Below, piece by piece: positions 16,281 through 22,025 of a DNA stretch of 64,000 bases. The translations under genes were made by a program, and so were the position numbers. The notes below the pieces were generated by a model, which made no database searches, was not told where the DNA came from, and saw only the letters and a list, made by a program, of their open reading frames with translations. The DNA comes from Aurantiacibacter sp. MUD11 (GTDB lineage: Bacteria; Pseudomonadota; Alphaproteobacteria; Sphingomonadales; Sphingomonadaceae), in contig NZ_CP114054.1 of NCBI RefSeq assembly GCF_026967575.1, positions 1,736,001 to 1,800,000 of the forward strand, written 5' to 3'. Position 1 is the stretch's first letter. Every line of letters starts with the position of its first letter.

Positions 16281-16535
16281 TCAGTGGATGATGCCCTTGG
16301 AAGTGACGATCTCGTGGATGACGAGGCCGGTCAGCAGAGCGATGGCGGCAGCCAGGGCCGGCGAGATCTTGACGCCGGCTTCTTCGCCTTCTTCCGAAAT
16401 CGGAGCGGCGGCGCGTTCAGCAGCCAAGGGAGCAAGCGACACGTTGGCCTCGCTGGCACGTTCACCGGCATGCGCAGCAACCGGAGTGAAGGCAAGCGAT
16501 GCGACAGCCGTGGCTGCGAGGATCTTCTTCAACAT
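16281..16535 (-). CDS. Small exported or membrane protein, unknown
   Basis: An 84-residue protein. The first 23 residues are a Sec signal peptide (MLKKILAATAVASLAFTPVA, cleavage near AHAG). The mature part has a short acidic stretch (ISEEGEEAG) followed by one hydrophobic segment, ALAAAIALLTGLVIHEIV, and a short tail. An AGGAG ribosome-binding site precedes the ATG at 16535, and a strong terminator follows. It lies between the lasso-type B2 gene and the O-antigen-ligase pair, all on the minus strand. I do not recognise the family. Confidence 0.72.
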   Translation of the reverse strand: MLKKILAATAVASLAFTPVAAHAGERASEANVSLAPLAAERAAAPISEEGEEAGVKISPALAAAIALLTGLVIHEIVTSKGIIH

Positions 16536-16688
16536 GGTGAACTCCTGAATGGACGAGATTTCACGTTTGCTTTGAGGCTTCATACCGCACTGCACAAAGC
16601 CATGCAATGATCTATACGAGAAAATTCTTAATGGCCGCTTGTGTCTTACATGTTGCAAGTCACGTAATTCAAAAGCCTATTGGCCGGT

Positions 16689-17246
16689 CTAGCCAAGCAG
16701 AACTTCATAGGCGTCAATCTCGCCCCCGGTGACCACTTTGTCGCCATAGGTCAGCCATGCGTGGGCATTGAAATCTCCGCCTCCCGATTTCTCGACCCCG
16801 ATTGTGAGATTGCTGGCGATACCCGCACTTTCGAGCCACTTTTGGGCTGCAAGGGCCTGCACCAGGCAGTCTGATCGCCATGGGACGCGGCGCGCAATCC
16901 GAGGGATCATGAAGGAGACCTGCCTTGCCAGCAATTCGTCGCCCGGAAAGGCGTTTTCCGGCGAACGTCCGGAAGCTGCGATGTTCCGATTGTTTCTCAC
17001 AAAGGCGGATGGTGCATTACGTGCAAATGCCAGACGACCCCGTGCCAATTCGCAAATTGCCCTGACGGCGAACCGAACCATCGCCACCCAGCGAATCAGG
17101 ACGGAACGCGCCTCGAAACCGGGAATTGCAGCGTATCGACGGAAGGCCATGCCCTCCTTGCTGGCACGAAGCAGAGCGACTTCCAAGTCCGAGTAATCTG
17201 GCGCAGGTCTCGCCTCGTTGGATGCTTGCAAGCCAATGCTCGCCAA
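16689..17246 (-). CDS. Lasso peptide biosynthesis B2 protein (leader protease, transglutaminase-like)
   Basis: A 185-residue protein of the Transglut_core3 / lasso B2 family, the Cys protease that removes the leader from a lasso precursor. The C-terminal half has the active-site pattern: RSDCLVQALAAQKWL with Cys127, FNAHAWLTYGDK with His162 and GGEIDAYEVLLG with Asp178 as the likely third residue. The N-terminal half is helical and hydrophobic. It is divergent from the cyclase gene across 70 bases. Its recognition partner is the separate PqqD-like protein at 20,508, so this is a split B1/B2 system. Confidence 0.88.
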   Translation of the reverse strand: MASIGLQASNEARPAPDYSDLEVALLRASKEGMAFRRYAAIPGFEARSVLIRWVAMVRFAVRAICELARGRLAFARNAPSAFVRNNRNIAASGRSPENAFPGDELLARQVSFMIPRIARRVPWRSDCLVQALAAQKWLESAGIASNLTIGVEKSGGGDFNAHAWLTYGDKVVTGGEIDAYEVLLG

Positions 17247-17316: not shown

Positions 17317-19203
17317 ATGAGCGCGGTCGCCGCAGTTCTTGACCTTAGCGGCGATGGAAGCGGACTGCGACGCATTCAGGCCATGAAACATGCCATGAGC
17401 TATGCCGCTATCGACGGCGACAGCCAATGGTCTGGCAACGACATGGCTCTTGGCCACTGCGCCATGCATGCAACGTCAGAGGCGCGCGATGCGAAGCTGC
17501 CATTGCAGTCACAAGATGGCCAGCTTGCCGTCGTGATAGATGGCTACGTCGCCAATTACGACGAAATGGTCCTGGAACTCGATGCCCGCGGTGCCATCCG
17601 GCGTAACCGCTCCGATGCCGAGATCGTTCTGCAAGCCTGGTCGGTCATGGGAGAGGATTGCCTCGACCTTATCGAAGGAGAATTCGCCTTCGTCATCGCT
17701 GACCTACGAAGTGGGAAGATGCATTTGGCTCGCGACCACATGGGCTTGCGACCACTCTTCTACAACTTCGATGGCAGGCGCCTGGTTGTGGGATCGCATA
17801 TCGGAGGTGTCTTGGCTGGAATGGGCCAACAGCCACCTCTCAATTTCGGTTTCCTTGCCGAGATCATGACGTTTGAATTCGTGACGCTCGGCGAGACCGT
17901 CTGGTCAGGCATCAGAAGGGTAAAGCCGGCACACGTCGTCACTTTCGGGCCCAGTGGTGTCTCTGAGAGGCAGTATTGGAGCGTTCCGAGCGAGCCGCCG
18001 ATCCGATACCAGGACGATCGCGAATATGTCGAACACTATCGCGACGTTCTTCAGGAAAGCGTGCGGCGGGCGTCGCGAACCGATGCCCTTCTTGGCGTCG
18101 AATGCAGCGGCGGCCTCGATTCCTCTGCCGTCTTTGCCGTGGCCGACGAATTGCATCTCTCAGGACGACTTCCAGCACCAGACATAGCCGGATTTACCCT
18201 TGCGGCGCCTAAGGGCAGCGCCGCCGATGAGAGCAAATACGCTCAACTTGTAGCAGCCCACCTCAAGCGCGAACTGACCGAGTGCCGTCTCTATCTTCCA
18301 GATGCTTCCGAGATCCTCGAACGGGCGGCGGAAAGCCGGAATATCGCCACCTATCCCAACACCTTCATGTTGCAGAACATGTCACGCGAAATGGTGGCCA
18401 AGGGATGCCGCGCCGCCCTCAATGGCCAGGGCGGCGACATCTTTCTGGATGGCAACGGCCTCTACTATCACGAGGCCTTTGCAGAAGGGGAACTTGGCCG
18501 TCTTGCCAGTTATCTGAAGGCTGACTGGAGCGAACTTGGGCCAAGAGCCACGCTAGCGGCGCTTCTTAGGGGAAGCCTCTCGCATCTTCTGCCCCAGACA
18601 ATCCTTCGATTGAGAGACCAACGAGGCTGGTCAGAGCAATCGATTGAAGATCGGGTCTCGAAGTATGATTGGCTGAGCCCTGAATTGCAGAGGCTGTTGC
18701 GAGCCAGGATCGCGGACAGTCAGCCGCAAGATCGGTATGTTCGCCAATACAAGCAGATCAAGGTGTCTCATCCACTTATCGGGCACCTGCTCGACATGAT
18801 CGCGGAACAAAACGCAAGGAATGGCCTTGAGGCTCGCAGCCCGATGATGTCGCGATCATTCATCGAATTCTTCGGCCGAACGCCTGAAAGGATCAGGCGG
18901 CAAGGCAAGACGACCAGATTGGTACACCGAAAGGCAATGTCAGGAAGGCTACCCAAGGACGTACTTGAGAGGAGGGATAAGGCAGGTTTTGAGATCGCAT
19001 TCAGGCACTACGACGAGGCAATGGCGGAGTGCCTGGCTCAGGCGGCATCTTCTGCGTCAGAGATGCTCTTCTCGAAGCCGAACATCGCCACTCTTTTCGA
19101 ACGTTTCCGCGATGCCAAACAAGAACAAATTAACCATTGGACGGCCTGGGGGATATGTGGGATAATTTGGTTAGGGCAAAGGGATTTGAAGGATTGTTCT
19201 TGA
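17317..19203 (+). CDS. Lasso peptide cyclase, asparagine-synthetase-like (C protein)
   Basis: A 628-residue protein with an N-terminal glutamine-amidotransferase-like fold (about 1-215) and a C-terminal ATP-dependent synthetase domain. Residue 2 is Ser, so the Cys needed to hydrolyse glutamine is missing, as in lasso cyclases that use a peptide amine. The PP-loop VECSGGLDSSAVF lies at 262-273 and ALNGQGGD near 370. Such enzymes activate an Asp or Glu side chain with ATP and join it to the core peptide N-terminus. The precursor gene begins ten bases downstream. A true asparagine synthetase is unlikely given the lost Cys and the neighbours. Confidence 0.87.
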   Translation: MSAVAAVLDLSGDGSGLRRIQAMKHAMSYAAIDGDSQWSGNDMALGHCAMHATSEARDAKLPLQSQDGQLAVVIDGYVANYDEMVLELDARGAIRRNRSDAEIVLQAWSVMGEDCLDLIEGEFAFVIADLRSGKMHLARDHMGLRPLFYNFDGRRLVVGSHIGGVLAGMGQQPPLNFGFLAEIMTFEFVTLGETVWSGIRRVKPAHVVTFGPSGVSERQYWSVPSEPPIRYQDDREYVEHYRDVLQESVRRASRTDALLGVECSGGLDSSAVFAVADELHLSGRLPAPDIAGFTLAAPKGSAADESKYAQLVAAHLKRELTECRLYLPDASEILERAAESRNIATYPNTFMLQNMSREMVAKGCRAALNGQGGDIFLDGNGLYYHEAFAEGELGRLASYLKADWSELGPRATLAALLRGSLSHLLPQTILRLRDQRGWSEQSIEDRVSKYDWLSPELQRLLRARIADSQPQDRYVRQYKQIKVSHPLIGHLLDMIAEQNARNGLEARSPMMSRSFIEFFGRTPERIRRQGKTTRLVHRKAMSGRLPKDVLERRDKAGFEIAFRHYDEAMAECLAQAASSASEMLFSKPNIATLFERFRDAKQEQINHWTAWGICGIIWLGQRDLKDCS

Positions 19204-19213
19204 GGTGGGAAGC

Positions 19214-19579
19214 ATGTCTAAGAGTGCAGGTAAGAAGCGCCAGACTTATATAGTCCCAAGGTTGACGAAGTTCGGTACCGTCAGGGCACTGACGGGAGGC
19301 AGCCTAGACGTCGGCACCGACACCGGTTTCCCGACTGGAAAGAACTTTCAGTCAGACATTCGCGTCAAGGAAAACATCGCCCGCATTGGCGAACATCCCG
19401 CCGGCTTCGGTCTCTACCTTTTTGACTACAAGCCACATTTCCAGACAGGCGGAAGGCGCGGCCGACATTTTGGCGTGATGGCACAGGAAGTCGAAGGCAT
19501 TATTCCCGAAGCCGTATCGGTTGCCGCAAATGGCTACCTGCAGGTCGATTACGGCAAGCTTGGCATTAAGCTCCACTGA
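19214..19579 (+). CDS. Lasso-type precursor peptide fused to a Peptidase_S74 self-cleaving domain
   Basis: A 121-residue protein in two parts. Residues 12-27 (YIVPRLTKFGTVRALT) match the lasso leader pattern YxxPxLxxxGxxxxxT exactly. In known precursors that Thr is the next-to-last leader residue, so the core starts at Gly29; Asp36 is core position 8, the only acidic residue allowing a 7-9-member ring. Residues 47-121 match Peptidase_S74: SDIRVKENI, LYLFDYKP, RHFGVMAQEVE, GYLQVDYGKL. Ser47 and Lys52 have the S-D-x-R-x-K spacing of the self-cleaving phage tailspike chaperones. I chose ATG 19214, behind GAGGTGGGA; a GTG at 19205 would add three residues. A short S74 domain without the usual long C-terminal helices may cleave poorly. 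Confidence 0.82.
   Translation: MSKSAGKKRQTYIVPRLTKFGTVRALTGGSLDVGTDTGFPTGKNFQSDIRVKENIARIGEHPAGFGLYLFDYKPHFQTGGRRGRHFGVMAQEVEGIIPEAVSVAANGYLQVDYGKLGIKLH
19298..19351 (+). other. Predicted lasso core segment within the fusion precursor
   Basis: The 18 codons encode GSLDVGTDTGFPTGKNFQ. Gly1 to Asp8 would give an eight-residue macrolactam ring; residues 9-18 would be loop and tail. The left edge follows from the leader rule (cut two residues after the conserved Thr). The right edge is where S74 domains self-cleave, before the Ser at 19352. Both edges are predictions from family knowledge. Confidence 0.6.
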
Positions 19580-19657: not shown

Positions 19658-20506
19658 ATGGCAACTCTCACCAAGCGAAGCGCCCGCAGGCAGGAAGATC
19701 TGGCCAGTTCGCCCTTCGACAGTTGGACCAGACCTGCTGGCGGACCGATTGCCCATTTCCATCGGCAAGGAGACGACATCCTCCTTCGCTTCCCCCAATG
19801 CGCTGACTTCGAGATCCGGCCAGGATCAGAAGAGGTCGTCTGCCACCCGGTACCCGGCATCGACGAAACGACGATCGACAACGTCTTCTACAATTCCATC
19901 CGACCGCTGCTGATCAACCATGGCGGAGGCCTGGCCCTCCATGGAAGCGCATGTTCGACCCCTTATGGTGCCATCGCCTTTGTCGGATTGTCTCGCAGCG
20001 GCAAGACTACCCTTGCAGGGGCATGTGCCAAGGTCGGCAACCCCTTCCTTACCGAGGATGTCATCGAGCTACAGTTCAGCGGCGACGCCTACCGGGTGAT
20101 CCCTCAAAGGCCTTTGCTGAGAGTGTTTTCCGACACAGCCGACTACCTGCGCCAAGAACGGGAGGGCGAAAATGGGGCGCTCCCCAAGGTTGCTCTAAAG
20201 TCAGGGAAGGACCTACCCTTTGCCTCCGAAGCAGCAGACCTTGTTGCGATCTATGTGCTGGGTGCAGGTGAAGCGACAGAGCCGACTTTCAAGCCATTGG
20301 AACCCCAGCATGCCCTTGCAGAGATCATGCAGCATGCCTTCGTCCTGGATGTCGAAGACAAGCCAAGGCTGAGAGCACACTTCAATCGCCTTTCCGACCT
20401 TGCCTTGAAGGTGCCTTTCGTAGCCCTGGACTATCGACGCCAATACGATGCCTTGCCAAGCTTGGTGGAAGCGGTAGTTGAAGACGCTAGGAGCCGTGGG
20501 ACATGA
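19658..20506 (+). CDS. HPr-kinase-like protein of the lasso-type cluster
   Basis: A 282-residue protein with a Walker A loop, FVGLSRSGKTTLAGA at about 108-122, and LTEDVIEL where HPr kinases have their acidic metal-binding motif. The fold resembles the C-terminal domain of HPr kinase/phosphorylase. Relatives in other lasso clusters (for example paeninodin's) phosphorylate the precursor peptide. Here possible acceptors in the core are Ser2 and Thr7, 9 and 13, but there is no C-terminal Ser as in paeninodin. The PqqD-like gene begins one base after its stop (TGAAATG). Confidence 0.78.
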   Translation: MATLTKRSARRQEDLASSPFDSWTRPAGGPIAHFHRQGDDILLRFPQCADFEIRPGSEEVVCHPVPGIDETTIDNVFYNSIRPLLINHGGGLALHGSACSTPYGAIAFVGLSRSGKTTLAGACAKVGNPFLTEDVIELQFSGDAYRVIPQRPLLRVFSDTADYLRQEREGENGALPKVALKSGKDLPFASEAADLVAIYVLGAGEATEPTFKPLEPQHALAEIMQHAFVLDVEDKPRLRAHFNRLSDLALKVPFVALDYRRQYDALPSLVEAVVEDARSRGT

Positions 20507-20507
20507 A

Positions 20508-20792
20508 ATGCTGAAACTCGAAGACTGCATCTGTCGAAGCGACGATATCGTTTCGCGCGACGTCGGCGGCGAAACCGTTCTACTGGATCTCGAAGCCGGA
20601 ACCTATTTTGGCCTCAATCACGTTGGAGGTCGGCTATGGCAATTGCTCGAAGGTGGCAGCCGATCCCTGAAACAGCTTTGCGACGAACTGGAACGAGAAT
20701 TTGAAGTCGACCGCTCGGTCCTGGAGGCCGATGTCGTCGCACTGGCAAACGAATTGCAGGAAAACGGCTTAGCCAAGATCGAGCAGCAATAG
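20508..20792 (+). CDS. PqqD-like RiPP recognition protein (lasso B1)
   Basis: A 94-residue protein of the PqqD fold: DIVSRDVGGETVLLDLEAGT, then YFGLNHVGGRLWQLLEGG and a winged-helix-like C-terminal helix set. These RiPP recognition elements bind the leader, in lasso systems at the conserved Tyr and Pro, and present it to the B2 protease. The ATG at 20508 gives the family length. It converges on the nucleotidyltransferase gene seven bases away. Confidence 0.85.
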   Translation: MLKLEDCICRSDDIVSRDVGGETVLLDLEAGTYFGLNHVGGRLWQLLEGGSRSLKQLCDELEREFEVDRSVLEADVVALANELQENGLAKIEQQ

Positions 20793-20799
20793 GTAGCTC

Positions 20800-21942
20800 T
20801 CAGGAGCGCAGCAGCCTCACTCCGCTTTCGAAGGCATATCGCAGGTACAATAAGGGCAACGGCCAGTTGCTGGCGCGCGGGAAGCGCTTCCGCAAGTGTC
20901 GCGGCTTCGGCATCAGCATCTTGGCGACGAATTCGCCCTTCGCTTTCAGACCACGCGAAGCCATCAGGTCGGCCTTCTTTCGTGCAATCATTTGGTCAGC
21001 CTCCAGGTATCGCATCACCTGAGTGTCGGTCGGGGCAGCCCGAAGTTCGGAGAGGATGCCTTCATCGATAGGCGTCCCAAGTGCCGAACGTGCATGCTCG
21101 AAAGCCTCTAGCAAGGCAGACGCCGCACCCGTTTCGAGAGCCGTCCGCAGCAGCCGCTCCCATTCTGCCTGTTCCATCGCCTCCGCCAGCAAGTCGGCAT
21201 CATAGGCCCAGATCAATCTCCTCGCACCGACAATCCTATCTCCATTCAGAAAGACGCCAAAATCCGAATGCCACTTCAGGTTGAAGGCCAATTGCATTAA
21301 GCTGTCTGGGTAGGACAGAGATCGAATACCGTCTCCTAGACGTTCCAGGGGGCGAGTGTTCGCAAGGGCTTCCTCTAGCGGAAAGGCCTTCTGAAGGACC
21401 GGCGAATCGTTGACCTGCCAGTGAAGGTCGATCTCGGTCTTCAGACTGCCTGGCGATGCGGCAATCCAGGCCTCCTGGAACATCTTTCCGTGGATCGGAT
21501 CTGCCAGCTCGAAGCCAATGTCCGACAAGACCTTCCTAGCCTCGGAAAGGTCGTCTCTGCGAACCAGGAGGTCGGTATCGCCGCGCGTTCGAGAGGCAGG
21601 ATTGTCGTAGAGGGAATAGGCGAGTGCCGTTCCCTTCATGACGACCGTTTCAATGCCAGCTGCGACCAGCGCCTCCAGCAACCGCACAATGGGCTGCATA
21701 TGGGCCGCTTCCCAGAATTCGCGACCCATGGCCGACTGACGCAACATTCCCGCAAATGGCTCAGGCCAATCTGGTCGCTCCGCCGTACTAGTGACCAGCA
21801 GATGGGCAATCCCGTGGTAGTCGATGCGCTCGGCCATTTGTTGGGGCGATGACGCTGCAATGGGCAGAAGGAGGGTAGCGCCTGCCAGTTCCCCCCTCAG
21901 CAGAGCAGCCAGCCCCTCATCAATTGCATCGAAGTCTGCCAT
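20800..21942 (-). CDS. Nucleotidyltransferase family protein (NTP_transf_5)
   Basis: A 380-residue protein. The family core is MKGTALAYSLYDNPASRTRG followed by DTDLLV, with Lys103 and the paired metal-binding Asp122 and Asp124. These proteins are common beside HPr-kinase-like and PqqD-like genes in RiPP and polysaccharide loci; in one lasso pathway a relative adds a nucleotide to the product, but most are uncharacterised. I chose ATG 21942; a TTG at 21978 would add 12 residues. It converges on the PqqD-like gene and lies 83 bases downstream of wecB on the same strand. Confidence 0.82.
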   Translation of the reverse strand: MADFDAIDEGLAALLRGELAGATLLLPIAASSPQQMAERIDYHGIAHLLVTSTAERPDWPEPFAGMLRQSAMGREFWEAAHMQPIVRLLEALVAAGIETVVMKGTALAYSLYDNPASRTRGDTDLLVRRDDLSEARKVLSDIGFELADPIHGKMFQEAWIAASPGSLKTEIDLHWQVNDSPVLQKAFPLEEALANTRPLERLGDGIRSLSYPDSLMQLAFNLKWHSDFGVFLNGDRIVGARRLIWAYDADLLAEAMEQAEWERLLRTALETGAASALLEAFEHARSALGTPIDEGILSELRAAPTDTQVMRYLEADQMIARKKADLMASRGLKAKGEFVAKMLMPKPRHLRKRFPRASNWPLPLLYLRYAFESGVRLLRS

Positions 21943-22025
21943 CTCCAACCTTGTGCCCTTGGGACTGGGGGCTGACAATATCGCTCGCCCTCGTTCAGGC
22001 CGATAGGCGAGAGGCTTGCCGCGCC

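Follow-up and report, generated by a model that had tools for sequence, protein, structure and literature searches.

A predicted lasso peptide precursor fused to a compact Peptidase_S74 domain in Aurantiacibacter

The precursors of known lasso peptide clusters of the HPrK type end with their core. In a 64,000-nucleotide stretch of Aurantiacibacter sp. MUD11 (contig NZ_CP114054.1, positions 1,736,001 to 1,800,000; the window means this whole stretch), the core of a lasso-type precursor is instead followed in the same frame by a 75-residue Peptidase_S74 (S74) domain, and this fused protein, its relatives and its probable processing are the subject of the present text.

According to the available portions of the reports, HPrK-type proteobacterial clusters (the Sphingobium yanoikuyae type and Bradymonadales BsfA/BsfK) are like the window locus in their split B1 (PqqD) and B2 proteins, their cyclase C, an HPr-kinase homolog and the YxxPxL leader (PMC8498205, PMC10368454). 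The same excerpts describe a C-terminal Ser phosphorylated by the kinase in several of these precursors (PMC8498205) and a Ser3 phosphorylated by BsfK of another cluster of this type (PMC10368454); at position -2 BsfA has Ile and the window precursor has Thr. The S74 part is comparable with the S74-ICA domains of phage endosialidase and MyRF, which, in the parts of the sources that are accessible, also have a Ser with a Lys five residues on, the Gly of a GV[IM]A-type motif and a position C-terminal to the released part (PMC8326128, PMC3742443). In those proteins, however, the upstream part is a trimeric beta-helix and not a short peptide, a C-terminal coiled-coil helix is present which is missing here, and the residue after the Ser is, as far as the same sources extend, Asn in phage endosialidase; in MyRF it is Asp, as in the window protein. 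Folded domains were also placed on the C-terminus of lasso precursors by engineering: the accessible text reports that astexin-1 and pandonodin mature when GFP or a leucine zipper is fused to their C-terminal ends (PMC13352647, PMC8498205), the astexin-1 fusion carrying a flexible linker (PMC8498205). Such fusions are man-made and meant to stay on, whereas the window precursor occurs naturally, has no linker and is predicted to be cut. No paper connecting S74, endosialidase or tail-fibre domains with lasso peptides was found in the literature searched, from whose coverage most subscription journals were absent. All sequence features examined agree with a lasso precursor, and a C-terminal processing domain of this kind is undescribed as far as these searches show.

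Layout and family of the fused precursor

An earlier note, made from the DNA letters, had proposed an open reading frame at these positions running from lasso leader through core into an S74 domain without a stop, and the translation agrees with it:

19214..19579, + strand: fused precursor open reading frame of 121 residues, with leader, core and S74 in one frame without a stop
19214..19297, + strand: lasso leader, residues 1-28, YxxPxL...G.V..LTG with Thr at -2 (NCBIfam lasso_leader_L3; TbiA weak)
19298..19351, + strand: predicted 18-residue lasso core GSLDVGTDTGFPTGKNFQ, ring predicted between Gly1 and Asp8
19352..19576, + strand: compact Peptidase_S74, residues 47-121, with the Ser47-Lys52 dyad (Pfam PF13884) and a predicted cut before Ser47

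Along the protein the leader MSKSAGKKRQTYIVPRLTKFGTVRALTG is followed by the core and then by the S74 part, which starts SDIRVKENIARIG; GAGGTGG, judged by eye to be Shine-Dalgarno-like, lies upstream of the ATG at 19214. The full leader pattern that had been read from the letters is present (Y12, P15, L17, G21, T27), the core starts at G29, and D36 falls on ring position 8. The S74 assignment, with its Ser47 and Lys52, is confirmed by Pfam (residues 47-101, E 2.3e-9, 37.8 bits, curated cut-off 22). The expected match to a lasso precursor model was obtained in part: NCBIfam lasso_leader_L3 aligns with residues 12-29, but its 16.8 bits stay slightly below the cut-off of 19; the same model matches 104 of 120 homologs at E <= 0.05. 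Compared with solved structures, the family profile matched the MyRF ICA domain (E 1.7e-5), which is the best solved relative of the S74 part, and weakly the lasso leader of TbiA (E 0.62).

The homolog family was assembled as 302 proteins, that is the best 120 of 395 from a single-sequence search, the best 120 of 2961 from a profile of distant members and 95 from a search with the S74 part alone; conservation counts based on similarity lean to full-length kin, and the S74-only search serves as a check on them. Leader, acid at core position 7-9 and Ser....Lys occur together in 292 of the 302 proteins by a strict rule and in 293 when P0285, which has all features by eye with the leader shifted, is included, so the co-conservation that the earlier note had proposed to look for is borne out. 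The lack of an S74 match, loss of Ser or Lys among homologs and a leader-core part varying without a ring acid had been named in advance as damaging, and the opposite was found in all three respects. P0248 keeps leader and acid and has Thr in place of the Lys; of the 294 proteins with a leader, 293 retain the dyad. The eight proteins without a leader are four gene calls of 81-84 residues and four other compact S74 proteins. In the S74-only selection all features were recognised by pattern in 85 of 95 (86 counting P0285), the ten failures being P0285, P0248, four 81-84 residue calls and four compact S74 proteins. When 237 homologs were parsed into leader and core, every one of the 229 that could be parsed had the acid at core position 7-9 and Thr at -2; among the other eight, seven lack the motif spelling used and one has His after the Ser, and all eight pass the strict rule.

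In a scan of genome contigs 28 loci were found, their hosts belonging to the Alpha-, Beta- and Gammaproteobacteria, with a cyclase match at 19, an HPrK match at 21 and at least one of these at 23; the remaining five are L071 (a 3 kb contig), the orphans L073 and L075, and the leaderless L078 and L079. The fusion is not a matter of chance, because it recurs in 293 of the 302 proteins and the neighbouring biosynthetic genes recur with it. The same recurrence across the family led to rejection of the idea that it is an isolated read-through or an error of annotation. A prophage leftover was rejected as well: the genome, a single contig, has only this one S74 match, it stands among lasso genes, and matches to the S74 part alone are nearly all of lasso type. 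Few family members are named among those listed, and several are called 'tail fiber domain-containing'.

Some members of the wider family deviate from the common layout. Small leaderless proteins (P0299-P0302, L138) end in a compact S74 domain without the trimer helix, and some of them have a secretion-like start, as judged by eye. At L072:10001-10342, from Polaromonas, a Cys occupies the position of the catalytic Ser. The orphan fused precursors L036, L037 and L073 have long Gly/Met-rich cores and occupy one conserved site next to genes assigned by eye to sodium-symporter-like proteins and to sugar metabolism; no lasso genes were found in the stretches around them, and the genomes of L036 and L037 have a cyclase elsewhere.

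The junction and the predicted self-cleavage

Changes of the Ser, of the Asp at +1, of the Lys at +5 or of the Gly of GV[IM]A block or reduce the processing of MyRF, according to the available parts of the reports (PMC8326128, PMC3742443). Their counterparts in the window protein are S47, D48, K52 and G87, each invariant or above 90% in 120 homologs. In the same number of homologs the residue before the junction varies (M 31, Q 19, A 15, G 12, then R, P and others), whereas the Ser, Asp and Lys after it are nearly invariant. This pattern is more readily explained by an autocatalytic cut than by a protease specific for the site, and bears on the idea that some other protease clips an exposed junction while S74 acts only as a solubility or oligomerising tag and the dyad is a relic. 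That idea can appeal to the lack of a trimer helix and to the two exceptions, Lys missing in one protein and Ser at one locus, which may mean that the dyad is dispensable; it is nonetheless considered quite improbable.

A family profile was run over 396 genomes of the order and 20 regions were examined; besides fused proteins it matched ordinary lasso precursors with the same leader, referred to below as plain. The fused cores (the 229 parsed) have 14-25 residues and the 25 distinct plain cores 14-26, both with a median of 17 and without a significant difference (Mann-Whitney p 0.30); over the 292 strict-rule proteins, more distant kin included, fused cores range over 14-33 with a median of 18. 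Core and S74 are joined with zero linker. Since core lengths are equal and no linker intervenes, the Ser of S74 stands where the plain precursor stops, and the domain is read as a C-terminal processor because the pathway would get the same kind of core with or without it. It is likely, therefore, that S74 is a built-in processor which defines the end of the 18-residue core. At L060:8164-8455, from a metagenome-assembled genome of Sphingomonadales, the Ser codon itself is TAG and the S74 frame is otherwise intact. In a search for S74 relics downstream of 36 leader records (many being the same gene twice) L060 matched at E 5e-39 and the other listed matches had E 0.41 or worse; a general history of S74 decay is therefore not shown.

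From these sequence comparisons it is predicted, with a probability of about 0.6, that the precursor cuts itself at Gln46|Ser47. Two observations limit the weight of this prediction. The S74 domain ends before the trimerising helix of the MyRF type: after the GVMA motif there are 34-37 residues in 116 of 120 members, and the structural match stops at MyRF residue 677. This trimeric coiled-coil helix is a feature of MyRF and not a part of the Pfam model, and the accessible part of the report states that MyRF cleavage requires it (PMC8326128). The other observation is that S74 domains in general commonly have the Ser-Lys pair. Its conservation alone is therefore no proof of cleavage, and an argument built on it was rejected for this reason. 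From the general S74 loci, 27 of 29 were parsed (L089 and L102 were not, and the length of 18 for L107 is a mis-parse), and only lengths were used, the Ser/Lys count being unreliable because in some of the 27 the pattern picked up a site further on. Because the trimerising helix is absent, self-cleavage, although likely, is held with less certainty than for phage tailspikes.

It is also imaginable that S74 is never cut and stays in place as a folded plug, anchor or carrier, the product being a natural lasso-protein fusion. In favour of this, lasso enzymes accept astexin-1 and pandonodin with a fusion partner on the C-terminus, as the available parts of the reports describe (PMC13352647, PMC8498205), the helix that activates MyRF is lacking, compact S74 also ends the small leaderless proteins, and equal core lengths could reflect the length needed by any lasso core. 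A permanent fusion agrees poorly, on the other hand, with the missing linker, with a junction that coincides with the stop of plain cores, with a dyad in all leader-bearing proteins except one, with the L060 stop at the Ser codon, and with genome G012, which has a plain precursor in its cluster, a fused orphan elsewhere and one strong cyclase match; an uncut domain is thus regarded as unlikely. The engineered fusions have a further consequence. The statement of the earlier note that a lasso needs a free C-terminus for threading was too strong, and since lasso precursors with C-terminal fusions mature, the cut is possible before or after threading. The earlier interpretation as a whole is partly supported.

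Biosynthetic neighbours and plain relatives

The genes next to the precursor are as follows:

16689..17246, - strand: B2 leader peptidase, Transglut_core3 in Pfam (lasso_biosyn_B2 73.1 bits, cut-off 33)
17317..19203, + strand: lasso-type cyclase C with Asn synthase fold, SGGLDSS and Ser at position 2 (Pfam Asn_synthase 3.4e-44)
19658..20506, + strand: HPrK-like kinase (weak HprK_rel_B, E 0.1; P-loop GLSRSGKT by eye)
20478..20792, + strand: B1 or PqqD leader-binding protein (Pfam PqqD 8.6e-21; lasso_PqqD_Bac 59.1 bits, cut-off 80)
20800..21978, - strand: NTP_transf_5 nucleotidyltransferase (Pfam 1.8e-32)

B1, B2 and C are all encoded beside the window precursor by the evidence of Pfam and NCBIfam. 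Glutamine-hydrolysing Asn synthetases have Cys2 where the lasso-type cyclase has Ser, and Ser is found at position 2 in 31 of 34 cyclases from these loci. The top NCBIfam match of the window cyclase is a lasso cyclase, with a score below the cut-off of that model.

The 20 regions of the same order comprise four fused clusters, 11 plain clusters, two fused orphans, two plain orphans and one region cut by a contig end. In all 15 clusters, fused and plain, the gene order C-A-HPrK-PqqD is identical, HPrK occurring in both kinds alike, and B2 lies divergently beside C in 12; in the same-genus fused clusters L032-L034 tblastn found no B2 alongside, and the sole Transglut_core3 match of each of these genomes lies elsewhere. 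Matches to NTP_transf_5 occur near the precursor in 13 of the 20 regions. A strong cyclase is present in each of the four orphan-bearing genomes, with best E values of 1e-107 to 1e-117.

Sampling by cyclase only gave 17 of 296 genomes at E <= 1e-90, with three fused and 14 plain precursors, and a phylum-wide sample gave five matches in 398 genomes. No precursor was found in G577 (examined stretches), at L113, the second cyclase locus of G346, or at L137 of G694 (pattern search). A tree of 34 cyclases requires, by its starred branches, a minimum of four switches between the fused and the plain form; it gives no direction of change, and in it L060 is labelled fused, L032 is dropped as coming from the same genome as L053, and the outer rows, fetched by an S74 query, are fused by selection.

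A further reading holds that the protein is not a lasso precursor at all: its leader-like part would serve a different modification, and the Asp would have a structural role. Such a reading could point to the leader model and the cyclase, both under their NCBIfam cut-offs, and to core position 1, where 25 of 233 parsed homologs have Asn, Thr, Asp or Pro. Against it stand the adjacent B2, C, PqqD and HPrK genes, the acid in every parsed core, the leader shared with plain precursors beside the same genes, and the Ser at position 2 of nearly all cyclases. The chance of it is accordingly put as very slight, and the window protein is very probably a lasso precursor.

Proposed maturation and side observations

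In the order of events proposed for the window precursor, PqqD would bind the leader, B2 would remove residues 1-28, and C would join Gly29 to Asp36 around the tail. The Ser47-Lys52 dyad would release S74 before or after the threading; as long as it is attached, the domain may hold the short core in solution or serve as a lower plug. The HPrK-like kinase is predicted to phosphorylate the precursor, and by analogy with the known clusters its target may be a Ser of the core, perhaps Ser2; at core position 2 or 3 a Ser is present in 137 of the 229 fused cores. Unlike the C-terminal Ser targeted in known HPrK clusters, a terminal Ser ends only one of the 25 plain cores. Twenty of these 25 start with Gly-Ser, and HPrK is present in 11 of 11 plain clusters; Ser2 of plain cores is a candidate phosphorylation site.

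Guidance of lasso threading is an open question in the field, and a tail-holding domain would make it testable. It may tentatively be supposed, with more doubt than confidence, that these precursors form a natural RiPP class for which a phage tailspike chaperone was recruited as a folding sensor of the knot, so that S74 would hold the tail and cut only after the lasso has formed, and that a stop at the catalytic Ser made ordinary precursors several times. Release of the domain would, on that equally doubtful supposition, report correct threading. If the cut occurs, the precursor of a natural lasso pathway would itself supply the protease for its C-terminus, and processing would comprise a second event besides loss of the leader. 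A large number of proteins (2961 profile matches, the best 120 of which were inspected) would gain a function by it, and an S74 domain that has about 75 residues and lacks the trimer helix would offer a simple test of whether S74 catalysis needs trimerisation, as well as a candidate tag for scarless C-terminal release in peptide work.

Beside B2 the window also encodes, at 16281-16658 on the - strand, a small protein whose start looks signal-like and whose C-terminal part has a hydrophobic stretch (both by eye), and for which tblastn gave matches in six of the 20 regions and two of the 28 loci, near fused and plain precursors. In another Aurantiacibacter cluster a PrmA/PRMT-like methyltransferase (L053:10411-11349) is placed between precursor and HPrK; the corresponding gap in the window is 78 bases, too small for a methyltransferase gene of this type.
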